A stretch of DNA of 38,730 bases from Nitrospirae bacterium 13_2_20CM_2_62_8 (GTDB taxonomy: Bacteria; Nitrospirota; Nitrospiria; Nitrospirales; Nitrospiraceae), in the NCBI GenBank assembly GCA_001914955.1, contig MNDM01000042.1:1-38730 (forward strand), in the 5' to 3' direction. The stretch's first letter is position 1. Every line of letters begins with the position of its first letter. Both the position numbers and the translations under genes were made by a program. The notes under the pieces are model-generated. The model made no database searches and was not told where the DNA came from. It was given only the letters and a program-made list of their open reading frames with translations. Below, piece by piece: positions 2,913 to 25,256 of the stretch.

Positions 2913-3600
2913 CCTCAAGGGGAGACTGATCGCGATCGAGGGAACCGACGGCGTGGGCCGTTCCACGCATATCGAGATGCTGCAGGAGTGGCTCGAAGTG
3001 CAGGGATACGGCGTCCTCACGACCGGGTGGACAAGGTCCAGTCTCATGTCCAAGACCATCGAGGTGGCCAAACAGGGGAACATCCTGGACCGATGGTCGT
3101 TCAGCCTGCTGTATGCCACCGATTTCGCCGACCGCCTGGAGCACCAGATCATTCCGGCCCTCCGTTCCGGTTTCGTCGTGTTGGCCGATCGCTACATCTA
3201 TACCGCGTTGGCGCGCGACGTGGTCCGCAGCGGGGACCCCACCTGGATTCGGAACGTGTTCGGGTTCGCCATCGTCCCGGATCTGATCTGCTACCTCCGC
3301 ATCGACGTTGACACGCTGGCGCTGCGGGTGATCGAGAGCAAAGGGATGAACTTTTGGGAATCCGGGATGGACCTGAAGCTGGGCGCCGATCTGTACGAGA
3401 GCTTCAAGAAATACCAGTCGCTGCTGATCGAGGAATTCGACAGGATGGCGGAGGAGTTCCACTTCGAGGTGGTGGATGCGCGAAAACCGCCGGATGAGAT
3501 TCAGGAGGCGCTCCGGGCCAAAATCGAGCCGGTCCTCAAGACTGGCCGTCTCACCCAACCCTCGACCGGCCAGCCGGCTAAGGCTTCCTCAGCCTCCTGA
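2860..3600 (+). CDS. Thymidylate-kinase-like paralogue with altered P-loop
   Basis: 246 residues from the ATG at 2860, which has GAGG five bases upstream and lies inside the 3' end of the previous gene (53-base overlap). The protein aligns end to end with its neighbour: IEGTDGVGRST against VEGLDGSGKST, SLLYATDFADRL against SLLHATDFANRL, VLADRYIYTALARD against VLADRYVYTAFSRD. The essential Walker A lysine is arginine here (R34). The DRY motif is kept. Lysine-to-arginine at this place usually cripples phosphoryl transfer, so this may be a regulatory or structural subunit, or a kinase with changed chemistry. The frame is intact and well conserved, so it is not a decaying copy. Confidence 0.85.
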   Translation: MGNGHYFGDGLTYLNPSDLKGRLIAIEGTDGVGRSTHIEMLQEWLEVQGYGVLTTGWTRSSLMSKTIEVAKQGNILDRWSFSLLYATDFADRLEHQIIPALRSGFVVLADRYIYTALARDVVRSGDPTWIRNVFGFAIVPDLICYLRIDVDTLALRVIESKGMNFWESGMDLKLGADLYESFKKYQSLLIEEFDRMAEEFHFEVVDARKPPDEIQEALRAKIEPVLKTGRLTQPSTGQPAKASSAS

Positions 3601-6527: not shown

Positions 6528-6547
6528 GGAGGAAAAAAGGAGTCACT

Positions 6548-18720: not shown

Positions 18721-19635
18721 TCAACGCCGGTTGGCCGCGCGGAACTCCTTTACCACGTCCTTTACAGCCCGTCGCTCACCATCAACCAAGTAATTGAGCC
18801 GTCGCATCTCCTCATCGGTGATGGCCCCGGCGAGCGCGGAGACCGCTTCACGGAGTTCTGGAAAGCGAGCCAGTACCGCGCCGGACATCACCGGCGCCGC
18901 ATGGTAGGAAGGAAAATACCGCTTGTCGTCAGTCAACACAAACAGTCCGAGTTTGGTAATGAGTCCGTTCGTGGAGTCTCCCGCAATGACATCCACCTTC
19001 CGATCCGCCAGCGCCTGATAGGTGAGCGCGAGGTCCATCACCCGAGGCGCCTCGGCAAACCGCAAGCCATAGCTGCGGGAAAGACCCGGGAACCCGTCAG
19101 GCCGCTCCAAGAACTCATACCCGAACGCGGCTCGCAACCGGGGGGTATGCGCGGCCAGTTGCGAGATGGTCTTTACCCCCAACCGGTCGGCGTCCTCCCT
19201 TCTGATGATGATCGCGAAGGTGTTGTTGAACCCGAGCGGAGGCAACCATTCGAGGCGGAAGCGCGTGCGGTAGGCCTCCTGGACGGTACGGAACACGGTC
19301 TCGGAATCGGAGGACGGCGGCAATTGTAAGATGGCGGTCAATGCCGTGCCGGTGTACTCCACATATGCGCCGATCTGACCGGCCATGAGGGCCTGATGAC
19401 AGATGAAGGTTCCGCCCAGGTTGAGCTTTCGTGCCACCCGCAGATCGGTTCGCGCCTCGATCTGCTGCGCGAGTAGCTCACCCAGGATCACCTGCTCCGT
19501 AAAGTTCTTCGACCCGACGACGATGGTACGGTCTGTTTCGGAGCCGCCGCAGCCAGCCACCTGGGTCATGCCGAGCGCCGCCCCGGCGATTCCCAACGCA
19601 GCCCAGCCGACGCACCAGACTAGCCCTCGCATCAT
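18721..19635 (-). CDS. Betaine-type ABC transporter substrate-binding protein (OpuC/OsmX-like)
   Basis: 304 residues. Signal peptide with a probable lipobox (QVAGC, cysteine about residue 29). The ligand-binding type is shown by VVGSKNFTEQVILGELLAQQIE, LGGTFICHQALMAGQIGAYVEYTGTAL (in part) and VIAGDSTNGLI, all typical of OpuCC/OsmX/ProX-like proteins for quaternary amines. The start overlaps the permease stop (ATGA). Last gene of a four-gene operon with an EgtD-like methyltransferase. Ligands of this family include glycine betaine, choline and, for the EgtU branch, ergothioneine; which applies is open. Confidence 0.9.
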   Translation of the reverse strand: MMRGLVWCVGWAALGIAGAALGMTQVAGCGGSETDRTIVVGSKNFTEQVILGELLAQQIEARTDLRVARKLNLGGTFICHQALMAGQIGAYVEYTGTALTAILQLPPSSDSETVFRTVQEAYRTRFRLEWLPPLGFNNTFAIIIRREDADRLGVKTISQLAAHTPRLRAAFGYEFLERPDGFPGLSRSYGLRFAEAPRVMDLALTYQALADRKVDVIAGDSTNGLITKLGLFVLTDDKRYFPSYHAAPVMSGAVLARFPELREAVSALAGAITDEEMRRLNYLVDGERRAVKDVVKEFRAANRR

Positions 19636-20273
19636 GCCGTTGGCCGGGCGCCGAAGCGTTGTTCAACGCGGCCCAGGATCAGATCCGCCGCCAGCGCCAT
19701 GGTAGCTGCCGGAATCGCGCCGGCCAGGATCAAGCGGGAGTCCAGCATCGCCAACCCGCGGAAGATGAACATGCCCAAGCCTCCCGCCCCGATCGCGGCG
19801 GCGATGGTGGCCAGCCCGACCCCGATCACCGTTGCCAGGCGCACGCCGGTCAAAATGACCCCCAGGGCCAGCGGCAGTTCCACGCGCCAGAGGAGCTGTT
19901 GGTTGGTCATCCCCATCGCCACTGCCGCCTCCTTCACCGCCGGGTCGATCCCGGTCAGACCAGCCACGGTATTGCTGACCACCGGCAGGAGGGAATACAG
20001 GACCAACGCGATCAGCGCGGTGCCCGCCCCGATGCCACCGATTACCGGCAGCGGAATGAGAATGGCAAACAGCGCCAAACTCGGGATCGTCTGGATGACG
20101 TTCACGAGCCCGAGCACCGGTCGCCTCCACCGCGGGTTGCGGGCCAGGCCGACGCCAAGCGGAATCCCGATCAGGACCGCGCCCCCCGTAGACAGCCCGA
20201 CCAGGACAAGATGCTCACCCGTCAGCCGCAGCACCTCGTCACCGTGTAAGACGAAGAATTGGATGAATTCCAT
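19632..20273 (-). CDS. Betaine-type ABC transporter permease (OpuCB/OsmW-like)
   Basis: 213 residues, five to six membrane helices. The EAA loop reads IDPAVKEAAVAMGMTNQQLLWRVELPLA (in part), followed by GVGLATIAAAIGAGGLGMFIFRGLA, the signature of OpuCB/ProW-type permeases. The ATG at 20273 has GAGG four bases upstream; a GTG at 20285 is in frame but lacks one. It couples by ATGA overlap to the binding protein. Inner-membrane part of the importer. A gap of 96 bases separates it from the ATPase gene and contains short degenerate repeats. Confidence 0.9.
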   Translation of the reverse strand: MEFIQFFVLHGDEVLRLTGEHLVLVGLSTGGAVLIGIPLGVGLARNPRWRRPVLGLVNVIQTIPSLALFAILIPLPVIGGIGAGTALIALVLYSLLPVVSNTVAGLTGIDPAVKEAAVAMGMTNQQLLWRVELPLALGVILTGVRLATVIGVGLATIAAAIGAGGLGMFIFRGLAMLDSRLILAGAIPAATMALAADLILGRVEQRFGARPTA

Positions 20274-20369
20274 ACGCCCTCGCACGTTATTCGTTCAACG
20301 TGAATCGTTTACTTGCAAGCTTTGCTCAGTCCTCCAGACAGTTATGTGTTCACGATGAACGGTGAACGA

Positions 20370-21131
20370 TTACCGATCATATCGATTGCTTACTCGAAGC
20401 GTCCGCAGCACCGCCTGCACCTCAGGATGCTCCGACCTGAGAAACTCTTCCGGCGTCAGACACTCCACGAGCCGTCCATCCTGCACCAGGCCGATGCGGG
20501 ACCCCAGGAGGCACGCCTCAGGGATATCGTGAGTCACAAACACCAGGGTCCTCTTCAACTGCATTTGTAGATCTCTGAATTCCTGCTGAAGCTCGGCCCT
20601 CGTGATCGGGTCCAACGCCCCGAAGGGTTCGTCCATCAGCACCAGCGGCGGGTCGGCCGCCACCGCGCGTGCGACTCCCACGCGCTGCCGCTGGCCCCCC
20701 GAGAGCTCATGCGGGTACCGATCGCCGAATCGCTCCGGCGAAAGCCCGACCATCCGGAGCAGCTCCCGGACCCGCACGCGGATGCGCTCCGGTTCCCAGC
20801 CCTCCAATGTGGGGACCAGACCGACATTGCGAGCCACTGTGAGGTGAGGAAACAGCCCGACCTCTTGGATCACATAACCGATCCGTCGCCGCAGGCGAAT
20901 CGGATCCCAGGCGGTGGTGGGCACGCCCTCCACCAGCACTTCTCCGGCACTGGGCTCGAAGAGGCGATTGATCAATTTCAATACGGTGGTTTTCCCCGAG
21001 CCGCTTCGCCCGACCAGCGCGAGCGCTTCACCCTTGGACAGGGTGAATGACATCTCGGAGAGGACCGGTCTACCGGAGACATGCCGGAAACTCACACTGC
21101 GGAACTCGACTGCCGTGGATGCCACGGTCAT
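20370..21131 (-). CDS. Betaine-type ABC transporter ATPase (OpuCA-like, no CBS domains)
   Basis: 253 residues. Walker A is GRSGSGKTT, the signature LSGGQRQR, Walker B LVLMDEPFGALDPITR, and the switch histidine lies in VFVTHD. The INRLFEPSAGEV and GYVIQEVGLFPHLTV segments are typical of the ProV/OpuCA subgroup. The CBS pair found at the C-terminus of many OpuCA proteins is absent, so ionic-strength sensing through CBS is unlikely. It starts 18 bases after the methyltransferase stop, in the same operon. Confidence 0.92.
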   Translation of the reverse strand: MTVASTAVEFRSVSFRHVSGRPVLSEMSFTLSKGEALALVGRSGSGKTTVLKLINRLFEPSAGEVLVEGVPTTAWDPIRLRRRIGYVIQEVGLFPHLTVARNVGLVPTLEGWEPERIRVRVRELLRMVGLSPERFGDRYPHELSGGQRQRVGVARAVAADPPLVLMDEPFGALDPITRAELQQEFRDLQMQLKRTLVFVTHDIPEACLLGSRIGLVQDGRLVECLTPEEFLRSEHPEVQAVLRTLRVSNRYDR

Positions 21132-21149: not shown

Positions 21150-22100
21150 CTAGGGCCTGGGGCGGGCCAGCACCATGAGGAATCGCCGGTCCTCACTCAG
21201 AAACTCGGCCCGCGGCTCGAAGCCACCGTCAGCGATCAGCTTCAGCAACGCCCCGCGTTCGTATTTCCCCGAATGGTTCATCTCGATGCGCTCCCCGGCC
21301 CTGAGGTTGAACGGCTCTCCCCCCACCCGCAGAGCCAAGTCAACGTCCGCACGAAAGTATTTGCCGAGCCGATGCACGCCGGCCCGCACATCGGTCCGGG
21401 GCTCGAACACGAGCGCGCCGTCTGACTCGGTGATGCCGATGCTGCGTAACGGGGCAAACGCAAACGCGCGATTGAGCGGGTTCTCATAGCCTGCCCGCGT
21501 GTCGGAGTCGTTCTGGAGTTCGCCGTCCACCAGCAAGAGGTCATGGCCTCGAACGAGCGGACGGAGACGGCGAAGCATGTCCAGTGGATCGAACCCGCCG
21601 AGCGTGTTCCCGAGCAGCAGCACAAGCCGGCACGGGGTTTCCCGTCCGGGGACGAGTCCGCTCAGGTGTGCGGGGTTCGTAAGATCTGCTTTGATGCCGC
21701 GGCAGATCAGGCCGCGCTCTGCAGCGCCGGCGCAGGCCATTTCCAGCAGCGTCTGTCCCGCATCGACCGGGACATAGGCAACGGCTCGGCCGCCGGCAGC
21801 CAGTTCGGTGAGAAGATGGAAGTCCTTGGTCCCCTGGCCGGCTCCCAGACTGACCACCTCGACGGGGCCCTCGGGCAGCGCGCCTGTGACCTGTGAGACG
21901 CTGGCGCGGACGAGGGCATTGGAGCGGACATAGTTGCGATAAGGACCGTCCTGGCAGAGCGAGAGCCAAGCCCGGACCGAGAGCGGGAACCAGTAGAAGA
22001 ACCGCTCGGGCAAGTAGCGGTTGGCCAGCGCCGCCAGAAAGTCTTCGGCGATCGCCGCTTCAGTCAGTCTGACCTCGATCTGTAACGCCTGATCGTGCAC
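21150..22100 (-). CDS. EgtD-like SAM-dependent methyltransferase (Methyltransf_33 family)
   Basis: 316 residues from the GTG at 22100. The upstream TTG at 22154 is in frame but falls between the -35 and -10 of its own promoter. SAM binding: VEVVSLGAGQGTKDFHLL. Family features shared with histidine Nalpha-methyltransferase EgtD include LLLGNTLGGFD, the DGEL...GYENPLNRAF region and the C-terminal GERIEMNHSGKYERGALLKLI. The N-terminal PPKYFYD/PEYY region of true EgtD is changed to RFFYWFPLSVRAWL, so substrate may differ. EgtD trimethylates histidine to hercynine, the betaine precursor of ergothioneine. The linked betaine transporter makes a related substrate attractive. Confidence 0.78.
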   Translation of the reverse strand: MHDQALQIEVRLTEAAIAEDFLAALANRYLPERFFYWFPLSVRAWLSLCQDGPYRNYVRSNALVRASVSQVTGALPEGPVEVVSLGAGQGTKDFHLLTELAAGGRAVAYVPVDAGQTLLEMACAGAAERGLICRGIKADLTNPAHLSGLVPGRETPCRLVLLLGNTLGGFDPLDMLRRLRPLVRGHDLLLVDGELQNDSDTRAGYENPLNRAFAFAPLRSIGITESDGALVFEPRTDVRAGVHRLGKYFRADVDLALRVGGEPFNLRAGERIEMNHSGKYERGALLKLIADGGFEPRAEFLSEDRRFLMVLARPRP

Positions 22101-22133
22101 GAGCGCCCCATTGTCGGCCGGTCGGTCCGGGCT

Positions 22134-22163
22134 AGTGTAGGGAGAGCCGTGCAATCAAGTCAA
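22134..22163 (-). promoter_or_regulatory. Promoter of the EgtD-like/ABC transporter operon
   Basis: Minus strand TTGACT (22163-22158), 18-bp spacer, TACACT (22139-22134). It diverges from the precursor-peptide promoter about 30 bp away. Confidence 0.55.
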
Positions 22164-22193
22164 CGATGCCAACCCGGGAGGGCGCAAAACTGG

Positions 22194-22223
22194 TTGACAA
22201 GTGAGAGGCGGCCTCCCTATAGT
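22194..22223 (+). promoter_or_regulatory. Promoter of the precursor-peptide/MNIO operon
   Basis: TTGACA (22194-22199), 18-bp spacer, TATAGT (22218-22223): near-consensus sigma-70. The predicted start near 22230 leaves a leader of about 40 bases before the precursor ATG. Confidence 0.78.
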
Positions 22224-22269
22224 CATGCCCAGGTTCGGCCGGAAACTACTCACACCGAGGAGGTACAGG

Positions 22270-22383
22270 ATGGAGACCAAGGCCATCAATCTGGAGGTGG
22301 TGGAGACCGAGGAACTCCAACCCACCTGTCATCAACTGGACATTGTCGACCTCGAGGAACTCGTTCCTACCTGTCATCAATAG
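22270..22383 (+). CDS. Probable RiPP precursor peptide with two PTCHQ modules
   Basis: 37 residues. The ATG at 22270 follows an excellent Shine-Dalgarno (GAGGAGG); a longer in-frame start at 22201 lies inside the promoter. Residues 9-22 (EVVETEELQPTCHQ) and 24-37 (DIVDLEELVPTCHQ) are tandem copies of one module, and the peptide ends with the second PTCHQ. The acidic EEL followed by PTCHQ suggests Cys20-His21 and Cys35-His36 are modified. The next genes encode an MNIO (DUF692) enzyme and its partner, which act on cysteines of ribosomal peptides in methanobactin and bufferin pathways. No signal peptide. I know no described family with this motif. Confidence 0.82.
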   Translation: METKAINLEVVETEELQPTCHQLDIVDLEELVPTCHQ

Positions 22384-22403
22384 GCCACCCTTACGGTAAG
22401 GAG

Positions 22404-22431
22404 AAGGCCCGATCATTGATCGGGCCTTTTT
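22404..22431 (+). terminator. Intrinsic terminator between precursor and MNIO genes
   Basis: AAGGCCCGATC-ATT-GATCGGGCCTT followed by a run of five T (22427-22431): an 11-bp perfect stem with a triloop. It should make the precursor mRNA abundant and let only some polymerase reach the enzyme genes, a common layout in RiPP operons. The enzyme ATG is only seven bases past the T run. Confidence 0.88.
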
Positions 22432-22437
22432 CATTTG

Positions 22438-23262
22438 ATGGCGAGTTCCGTCAGCATCGGGGCCTTCTACAACCCACACCTGGCCCTGGAAACCCTGGCG
22501 GCCGGCGATCTGATCGGCCATCTCGCCATGGCCGATCCGCCGGGGCAACACGATCCCGCCTGGCCGGAGATTCGCGCCCGATATACGCTGCTCCTCCACG
22601 ATTACCTGGGCCAGCTCAGCGAGCCGTTCGATGAAGAGGAACTCGGCCGCGCCCGATCGCTGCTGGACCAATACCGTTCGCCGTGGGCTGCCGAACACCT
22701 GCAACGCATCCGCCGCACGGCCAGCGCCGTCGGGAATGATGCCAGACCCCTGCTCGACTACGTCTTCCCTCCCCTCTACACGGAGGACCTCTTAGCCGAG
22801 TACGCCCGGAACGCGCGCCTGCTCCGGGACCGCCTCGGTGTCCCGCTTGCGGTTGAACCGATTCCTACCTACCTGCACCTCGACTTGCCCCAGATGAGCG
22901 AACCAGAGTTTCTGCACCGCCTCTGCGAACAATCGGGCTGCCACCTGCTGCTGGACATCGTCCACACCTGGCTCTCGGCCCGGTTTGCCGGCCTGGACCC
23001 GCGGTCGCTGCTGTTGCAGCTCCCGCTTGAGCGGGTCATCGAGATGCACGTGTCCGGTCATGCGCCTGACCCCGACCTGGAGGAACCGTGGATCGCCCCG
23101 ATCCTTCCGAATAGGGAAATTCTGGATCTGGCGGAGCTGGCGGCCGCGCGGGCGCCCGGACTTCGCGCGATTACGTTCGACGCCTTCAGCCCCTCTCTCC
23201 GCCCGGAGACGCTTCTGGCCGGGGTGCGCATGCTCCGCGAACGCTTCGGGCAAGGCGGATGA
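22438..23262 (+). CDS. MNIO-family (DUF692) peptide-modifying enzyme, divergent
   Basis: 274 residues. The TIM-barrel family of multinuclear non-heme iron oxidative enzymes is recognised by order and spacing of: GAFYNPH (8-14), LLLH (H54), AEHL (E86-H87), LAVEPIPTYL (E140), EPEFLHRL, LLLDIVHTWLSA (D173, H176) and IEMHVSGHA (E202, H204, H208). The usual LLLDVNNVYVSA asparagine ligand is replaced by H176, the early EVHSENY motif is lost, and the terminal DTH motif is absent. Related enzymes turn cysteines into oxazolone-thioamide or thiooxazole groups, or excise a carbon. No Shine-Dalgarno lies directly upstream. It overlaps the partner gene by ATGA. Role: modification of the PTCHQ precursor. 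Confidence 0.82.
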   Translation: MASSVSIGAFYNPHLALETLAAGDLIGHLAMADPPGQHDPAWPEIRARYTLLLHDYLGQLSEPFDEEELGRARSLLDQYRSPWAAEHLQRIRRTASAVGNDARPLLDYVFPPLYTEDLLAEYARNARLLRDRLGVPLAVEPIPTYLHLDLPQMSEPEFLHRLCEQSGCHLLLDIVHTWLSARFAGLDPRSLLLQLPLERVIEMHVSGHAPDPDLEEPWIAPILPNREILDLAELAAARAPGLRAITFDAFSPSLRPETLLAGVRMLRERFGQGG

Positions 23263-24041
23263 CCGGCCGCTCTCTCCACGACGCGCTGCTTACCGTGCTG
23301 AGCGACGGACCGCTTCGCGCGCGGCTGCTGACTGGAGACACCAGCGCCCGCGGGATGCTGGGCCGTGAGGAGTGGGTAATGCTCAGGCGTGTGTCCGTTG
23401 AACGCCTGTGCCGCATGGCCCGGTTTCTTGCACGTCACTACTACCGCGAGCGGATCGTCAGGCTGTTCCGCCACATACGCACCCTGGCACCACACACAGG
23501 CCGTGATCCCCTGGCCGTCCTCGATACGCCAGCAGGGCTGGCCTCGCTGGATCAGTCAGTCTTAGGAACCCACGCGACTGCTGAGCGCCTGGTCTCGCTG
23601 ATTGAAGACTCTCTCATCGGAAACGACGCAGTGATCAGACTCGCGATTCCGTACTGGAGGGATCTGGTCCGGTACCACGTCACGATGTTTCGAGTAGAGG
23701 CCGGGGCGCCACTTTCCGGAGGCAATCCGGGCGGAACGCCGCGTCGTACCCCGTCCACCCGGATCTTAGATCTGGACTGGGACATCCCTGGCGTGATCGC
23801 CGACCTGCGAAAGGGAGCTCCACCTGTCCCGATCGCGAAAGCGGCCCCGACCTGCCTGTTGGTCGCGCGCTCCCGCGACGGGCGGGTCACCGCGGTCCGC
23901 TGCTCACAAGACATCCGGGTGCTGGTCGAAGCGGCCGACGGTCAGCGAACTGTTGACCAACTGGCTCGGATGAGTGGGCTCTCGGTTCAGGAAATCGGAG
24001 GTCTCTTGCCACAACTGGAGGAGATTGGAGCGATCAGTTAA
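23259..24041 (+). CDS. MNIO partner protein (HvfC/BufC/MbnC-like)
   Basis: 260 residues. The N-terminal half is helical with LRARLLTGDTSARGMLGREE and ERLCRMARFLARHYYRERIVRLF (in part), reminiscent of DUF2063 partners. The C-terminal 80 residues form a winged-helix-like domain (LLVARSRDGRVTAVRCSQDI, then DQLARMSGLSVQEIGGLLPQ) as in MNIO partner proteins, which bind the precursor leader and present it to the enzyme. It overlaps the MNIO stop by ATGA, so the two are translated together. Family assignment rests on position and gross pattern and is less sure than that of the enzyme. The end overlaps the convergent lipoprotein gene by four bases. Confidence 0.68.
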   Translation: MTGRSLHDALLTVLSDGPLRARLLTGDTSARGMLGREEWVMLRRVSVERLCRMARFLARHYYRERIVRLFRHIRTLAPHTGRDPLAVLDTPAGLASLDQSVLGTHATAERLVSLIEDSLIGNDAVIRLAIPYWRDLVRYHVTMFRVEAGAPLSGGNPGGTPRRTPSTRILDLDWDIPGVIADLRKGAPPVPIAKAAPTCLLVARSRDGRVTAVRCSQDIRVLVEAADGQRTVDQLARMSGLSVQEIGGLLPQLEEIGAIS

Positions 24042-25180: not shown

Positions 25181-25256
25181 GCTGGCGTAGCTCAATCGGC
25201 AGAGCAGCGGTTTTGTAAACCGCAGGTTGGAGGTTCGATTCCTCTCGCCAGCTCCA
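25181..25256 (+). tRNA. tRNA-Thr(UGU)
   Basis: 76 bases including encoded CCA. Acceptor GCTGGCG pairs with CGCCAGC; anticodon stem GCGGT/ACCGC with loop TTTGTAA gives anticodon TGT; the T-loop is TTCGATT. The region 25036-25679 otherwise holds no protein gene; it contains a duplication of the tRNA 3' end, GC-rich hairpins and a 101-bp-spaced repeat, listed separately. Confidence 0.96.

Follow-up and report, generated by a model that had tools for sequence, protein, structure and literature searches.

Known MNIOs act mostly on Cys, using a diiron centre, and depend on a partner protein (PMC13419390, PMC10635010). Among the described pairs, ApyHI of the aminopyruvatide pathway (PMC10635010) gives the best NCBIfam matches to the MNIO and partner reported here, and the pearlin/3-thiaglutamate pair TglHI gives the closest solved structures (8hci for the MNIO and 8hi7 for the partner). 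The bufferins, the HvfABC oxazolins and the methanobactins also combine an MNIO and a partner with Cys-containing precursors (PMC12452194, PMC13419390). The locus described here lies in a stretch of 38,730 nucleotides from Nitrospirae bacterium 13_2_20CM_2_62_8 (contig MNDM01000042.1), a MAG that is 73% complete; the whole stretch is called the window. The core of the locus consists of the following features, with the basis of each in brackets.

22194..22223 (+): sigma-70-like promoter TTGACA-18-TATAGT of the precursor gene (consensus match only)
22258..22264 (+): Shine-Dalgarno AGGAGGT, with the ATG 5 nt downstream (sequence)
22270..22383 (+): precursor peptide gene, 37 aa, two tandem modules, no signal peptide (ORF, orthologues, repeat test)
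22294..22335 (+): module 1, EVVETEELQPTCHQ, residues 9-22 (sequence, repeat test)
22339..22380 (+): module 2, DIVDLEELVPTCHQ, residues 24-37 (sequence, repeat test)
22400..22432 (+): strong hairpin with a T-rich 3' flank in the gap between precursor and MNIO, terminator- or attenuator-like (15-bp stem, MFE z-score -4.84)
22438..23262 (+): MNIO (DUF692) enzyme (PF05114, 4.2e-27)
23259..24041 (+): MNIO partner with a C-terminal RRE-like winged helix (4-nt overlap between its start and the MNIO stop)

The locus shares with ApyHI an RRE fused to the partner and a methyltransferase in the cluster. However, it scores far under the ApyH and ApyI cut-offs, has no C-terminal Asp core and no P450 or B12 radical SAM gene, and its methyltransferase comes from another family; ApyA, in turn, is not built of repeated modules. 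With TglHI the likeness lies in a reaction at a C-terminal Cys, carried on a scaffold peptide from which the product is subsequently cleaved. The window system showed no PEARL ligase to add a Cys; its Cys residues come from the coding sequence, recur within the peptide and stand before a His. The bufferins, oxazolins and methanobactins differ in that the window has no Sec signal peptide, EGKCG motif, DUF2063 Pfam signature or MbnC, and the site-3 residues of its MNIO are replaced.

The ORF at 22270-22383 (+) translates to METKAINLEVVETEELQPTCHQLDIVDLEELVPTCHQ, followed by a stop. Its strong Shine-Dalgarno, promoter-like site and conserved orthologues show it to be a real gene. The promoter matches the consensus at 11 of 12 positions, with 0.1 such sites expected in shuffled sequence. 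Two related genomes, the first from the window's genus and the second from its family, hold the cluster with both modules intact; between the same-genus precursors 3 of 37 residues are changed, and 4 further codon changes are synonymous. The hairpin at 22400-22432 was absent from the output of a terminator pattern scan, and NCBIfam scans of the precursors returned chance MoaC matches only. The interval 22155-22270, between the precursor and a divergent EgtD-like gene, carries promoter-like sites in both directions, which suggests that the two genes are under shared control.

The initial annotation described the peptide as a tandem duplication of a 14-residue module, with nearly identical codons at the two module ends and no signal peptide, unlike bufferins. 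This description is correct. The modules fall at residues 9-22 and 24-37 and are identical at 9 of 14 positions, against a maximum of 8 in 20,000 peptide shuffles; CCTGTCATCAA is found in both. The peptide is acidic and lacks a hydrophobic N-terminus. It contains two copies of the pattern [EDKQ][ILV][ILV][ED]xx[ED][LV]xPTCH. The view of the modules as short core repeats was mistaken or incomplete, as the precursor does not follow a layout of one leader plus cores: every module has its own conserved upstream segment. Nor did the annotation take in the exchange of Cys for selenocysteine in sister lineages, which this sequence could not reveal, or the place of the EgtD-like methyltransferase and betaine-type ABC genes in the system. 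In the shortest precursors of the family module 1 starts at the first codons, so that there is no separate leader, and each module seems to bear its own putative recognition segment.

Orthologous clusters occur at 41 loci in five phyla. An MNIO alignment scanned against one genome per species (about 85,000 species) yielded 34 loci, from Nitrospirota, Gemmatimonadota, Acidobacteriota, a Planctomycetota MAG and Rokubacteria; searches by phylum added three loci each in Rokubacteria and Acidobacteriota. The loci derive almost wholly from MAGs, and a scan of viral_contigs gave no relative. At nearly all of the 41 loci the MNIO and the TglI-like RRE partner lie directly downstream of the precursor.

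The precursors of Gemmatimonadota contain two modules (MQIVETQELVPSCHRPEIVETAELVPTCHS), apart from one Gemmatimonadaceae precursor with four, and the acidobacterial Cys precursors contain three. Cys-to-Cys spacing in multi-module precursors is 15 or 16. In a table of 40 distinct modules, compiled before three Acidobacteriota selenocysteine (Sec) precursors were found, P and H are invariant, and the residue between the T position and H is Cys in 35 and Sec in 5. It had been predicted that homologues would vary in copy number around an invariant TCHQ. Copy number does vary, every Cys precursor having 2, 3 or 4 modules and every Sec precursor found having 1, and the Cys-His (or Sec-His) is kept; the fixed element is P-x-[C/U]-H, with T replaced by S or A in some modules and the final Q by H, L, S, R, N or no residue. 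The precursors accordingly end in CHQ, CHS, CHR, CH, UHN or UH. Comparison of the orthologous clusters establishes the repeat as a real module. The restriction of Sec to single modules likely reflects the bSECIS hairpin, which must lie just 3' of the Sec codon and would be easy to accommodate only at the C-terminus.

Two copies of the cluster (L059 and L080) are found on separate contigs of one Gemmatimonadetes MAG, AG41. A tRNA-Thr gene lies downstream of the window cluster at 25181-25256 (+), and in the related genome G004 a stretch 93% identical to this tRNA-Thr region comes just after the partner gene. In view of the patchy distribution of the cluster, the tRNA-Thr region is a possible site of acquisition.

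At eight loci, four from Rokubacteria, one from the Planctomycetota MAG and three from Acidobacteriota, the precursor has an in-frame TGA in place of the Cys codon.

L048:7842-7901 (+): Sec precursor, single module, in-frame TGA at the Cys codon
L050:3216-3284 (+): Sec precursor, single module, in-frame TGA at the Cys codon
L105, L106, L107 (Rokubacteria): Sec precursors, in-frame TGA at the Cys codon
L122, L123 (TGA at 3266), L124 (TGA at 6534) (Acidobacteriota): Sec precursors

These precursors are 16-28 residues long, with one module each. Upstream of the MNIO, the DNA of L048 and L050 reads ..VELVPT-TGA-CAC-AAC-TGA and ..VEVVPT-TGA-CAC-AAC-TGA, respectively, and no Cys precursor was found at either locus. 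A His codon directly follows the in-frame TGA in all eight; the true stop is TGA or TAG depending on the locus, and in Acidobacteriota the C-terminus is Sec-His itself.

Downstream hairpins were judged by the published bSECIS model (PMC13188914). Five of the eight loci fit it fully, with unbulged hairpins of -10.4 to -14.5 kcal/mol, the loop 18-25 nt past the UGA and a G within the first two loop positions; the energy limit is reached by 1-4% of shuffles. The five hairpins covary, with 2-4 base-pair types per position at all six inner stem positions. The hairpins of L105 and L107 reach -7.8 with one bulge each, and that of L050 (-4.5 to -5.5) is too weak for the model. In the Sec genomes tested, which are those of L048, L050 and L105-L107, SelB scored above the cut-off in all five (G414, G415, G509, G519, G520) and tRNA-Sec in both of two (G414, G415). 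SelB was not above the cut-off in G000, G001 and G004, the window's genus being without SelB, and neither was tRNA-Sec in the three Nitrospirota genomes. Several genomes with Cys precursors also have Sec machinery; the machinery thus permits Sec and does not force it.

The reading of the in-frame TGA as Sec, giving PT-Sec-H, is well supported by these sequence features. A sequencing error or a true stop is rejected in view of the eight loci, the conserved His codon, the covarying hairpins and SelB. In an MNIO tree built before the Acidobacteriota Sec loci were found, the window clade groups with L048 and Rokubacteria with support of 100/99, which places Sec-encoding lineages as sisters of the window's system. 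For L048, misbinning or transfer is possible, since no second orthologue was found among 343 genomes searched in its phylum. The SbtM thio/selenooxazole RiPPs likewise have precursors in which a Sec insertion element comes after a TGA, and Cys and Sec are each a proposed substrate; the SbtM enzyme, however, is a radical SAM enzyme and not an MNIO, and no methyltransferase or ABC genes are described with it (PMC11002830).

The MNIO of the window passes the Pfam gathering cut-off for PF05114 with 95.5 bits against 25. It falls below the NCBIfam cut-offs for ApyH (95.5 of 400 bits), BufB (85.8 of 310), HvfB (62.9 of 360) and the MbnB equivalog (12.7 of 325), and the NCBIfam model scan gave no match for the partner MbnC. 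Other MNIOs of Nitrospirota are distant and of the ordinary type. The partner matches the ApyI model at 4e-5, below its cut-off. Its AlphaFold model (pLDDT 93.7) retrieves TglI (8hi7, 3.5e-6) and the DUF2063 protein NGO1945 (3dee, 2.4e-3) in Foldseek. The partner is thus predicted to be TglI-like with a C-terminal RRE domain, and on this model the cluster is of the PME-type 2 class of PMC12452194. With such an MNIO and partner encoded downstream, the 37-residue peptide is very probably a RiPP precursor.

In Gemmatimonadota the precursor and the MNIO have an aldo/keto reductase gene between them (L060:6865-8001 (+) and about 19 other loci). The reductase carries an additional helical domain at its C-terminus, which the model shows as wHTH/RRE-like, and is probably a peptide-tailoring reductase; that of L075 appears degenerate.

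In an alignment with ordinary MNIOs, from which the metal sites were assigned, sites 1 and 2 appear largely intact except for a Glu-to-Thr change at window residue 246. At site 3, His, Gly/Glu and Trp replace N175, D242 and H244 of HvfB, whose alanine variants inactivate that enzyme (PMC13419390). The replacement of three residues that HvfB needs makes it likely, on the alignment, that the reaction differs from thiooxazole formation. These changes bear on an alternative in which the MNIO would convert the Cys to a thiooxazole or oxazolone-thioamide that, together with His, binds copper or another soft metal. The product would be a metal-buffering or metallophore peptide whose several modules bind several ions, as methanobactins, bufferins and oxazolins do. 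The enzyme belongs to the superfamily of the known metal-binding MNIO RiPPs, most known MNIO products bind copper (PMC12452194), a selenium version has been proposed for the radical-SAM thio/selenooxazole RiPPs (PMC11002830), and repeated Cys-His is plausible as a ligand set. The alternative nevertheless has to face, besides site 3, a cluster with no Sec signal peptide, no DUF2063 Pfam match and no bufferin-type genes, whose linked genes encode an EgtD-like enzyme and a betaine-type ABC transporter rather than metal-related functions. We regard it as unlikely.

The linked genes lie on the opposite strand, divergent from the precursor.

21150..22154 (-): EgtD-like methyltransferase (Methyltransf_33), divergent from the precursor (PF10017 7e-21, linkage, co-occurrence)
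20370..21131 (-): ABC transporter ATPase, OpuA type (PF00005, linkage)
19632..20285 (-): ABC transporter permease (PF00528, linkage)
18721..19635 (-): OpuAC/ProX-type substrate-binding lipoprotein, SBP (PF04069 4.8e-55, solved choline/betaine-binding relatives, alignment)

The EgtD-like gene adjoins the precursor in most loci. Among 61 relatives it is present in exactly three, the same three that have the MNIO orthologue. OpuA/OpuAC-type ABC genes are linked in Nitrospirota, most Gemmatimonadota and two Acidobacteriota Sec loci. In L124 the methyltransferase, ATPase, permease, SBP, Sec precursor, MNIO and partner form a single same-strand run, and in L123 the Sec precursor, MNIO, partner and methyltransferase do so. 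In view of the perfect co-occurrence and these in-operon arrangements, the idea that the methyltransferase and ABC genes are unrelated neighbours is rejected. The four Rokubacteria genomes, however, lack the methyltransferase genome-wide, so that the conserved core, by gene content, is the precursor, the MNIO and the partner; methylation and transport would be accessories of most lineages. At the four Rokubacteria loci a CP_ATPgrasp_2-like gene lies directly upstream of the Sec precursor, replacing the EgtD-like gene.

L050:1613-3070 (+): CP_ATPgrasp_2-like gene
L105:7491-8876 (-): CP_ATPgrasp_2-like gene
L106:6417-7982 (-): CP_ATPgrasp_2-like gene
L107:920-2320 (-): CP_ATPgrasp_2-like gene

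Beyond the ABC genes, an MFS transporter gene is found at L060:1373-2623 (-) and at 17 other Gemmatimonadota loci, and it is a possible exporter of the product.

The methyltransferase and SBP belong, respectively, to the families of the histidine N-alpha-methyltransferase EgtD (Methyltransf_33) and the ergothioneine importer EgtU (OpuAC-type substrate-binding protein; PMC9732360), but the key His-binding residues of EgtD and the Gly and Phe of EgtU are not conserved, and the enzyme they accompany is an MNIO. Against the EgtD equivalog the methyltransferase scores 58.5 of 290.9 bits, below the cut-off. In a profile alignment its His pocket has Gly/Ala at EgtD N166 and Asn/Ser at E282, while Y206 and S284 are retained. 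The changes at N166 and E282 make plain histidine trimethylation unlikely. The SBP is, by sequence, of the quaternary-ammonium class. Phe and Tyr replace EgtU G244 and F293 in 12 of 12 SBPs, with the carboxylate-binding Lys retained, the equivalences coming from motif matching rather than direct alignment with EgtUC; membership in EgtU-type ergothioneine import is ruled out on these residues.

The neighbours raise a second alternative, in which the MNIO, acting on a peptide that is afterwards discarded, would link the Cys or Sec to the neighbouring His by a C-S or C-Se bond to give a thio- or selenohistidine. Methylation by the EgtD-like enzyme would then yield an ergothioneine- or selenoneine-like betaine, to be handled by the betaine-type importer. 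Such a reaction would suit a Cys or Sec that immediately precedes His and the linkage of EgtD-like and betaine-type ABC genes, which are co-operonic in L124. In the EgtB and OvoA pathways an iron enzyme joins S to His, but we know of no MNIO that forms a C-S bond to His. Given also the non-conserved EgtD N166 and E282 and EgtU G244 and F293, and the absence of the methyltransferase in Rokubacteria, we consider this reading doubtful. It is very improbable that the short ORF is a regulatory leader, in which the hairpin before the MNIO gene is controlled by ribosomes that pause at Cys/His or Sec codons and the peptide is no substrate: a terminator-like hairpin does sit between the ORF and the MNIO, but a whole amino-acid module (E, V, L and P included) is conserved rather than single-codon runs, its copies multiply at fixed spacing, the Gemmatimonadota aldo/keto reductase gene is interposed before the MNIO, and the MNIO and RRE partner require a peptide substrate for which no other candidate is present.

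The reading we prefer is that the precursor belongs to an uncharacterised MNIO-type RiPP, which the sequences make reasonably probable. The precursor would consist of one to four tandem self-contained units, each with Pro-Thr-(Cys or Sec)-His as its terminal core. In each unit the acidic-hydrophobic segment [IV]V[ED]xx[ED][LV] is the probable docking element for the partner's RRE domain, and the MNIO-partner complex would oxidise the Cys, or the Sec in sister lineages, beside His, the units perhaps acting independently. We hold this oxidation at each PT(C/U)H core to be somewhat more probable than its absence. Cys/Sec exchange marks a residue of a selenoprotein as the one that is chemically used, and the natural exchange at this position makes Cys likely to be the reactive residue. 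A point against it is that, for ApyHI, an MNIO was reported to require a Cys and yet leave it unmodified; ApyHI was functional only when expressed in Burkholderia sp. FERM BP-3421 (PMC10635010).

The later steps are more tentative and, taken together, less likely than not. In most lineages the modified Cys/Sec-His piece might be released, its freed amino group methylated by the EgtD-like methyltransferase, and the resulting betaine handled by the OpuAC-type ABC importer. No dedicated peptidase was seen. The site-3 and N166/E282 changes, an SBP with no EgtU signature and the Rokubacteria without the methyltransferase are points against the pathway.

The survey of MNIO precursors (PMC12452194) and that of bacterial selenoproteins (PMC13188914) mention neither the motif nor an MNIO-linked selenopeptide. 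Literature searches that paired MNIO and ergothioneine, EgtD and RiPP, or selenocysteine and MNIO gave no report of the system. The PTCH-module precursors appear as a previously unnoticed family, whose closest relatives have Sec for Cys. Confirmation would make this a selenocysteine RiPP whose maturation is carried out by an iron oxidase and whose precursors have just 16-28 residues. The natural Cys/Sec pairs indicate the Cys as the reactive atom and so make the target of the enzyme testable. One-module Sec precursors and two-to-four-module Cys precursors offer a natural experiment on the multiplication of RiPP modules. Linkage to EgtD-like and betaine-type genes hints at a product that is a small molecule and that to our knowledge is made by no known MNIO pathway. 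If that product were a thio- or selenohistidine betaine, the system would provide a ribosomally encoded route, a further logic for ergothioneine- and selenoneine-type molecules, and an MNIO-matured selenoRiPP.
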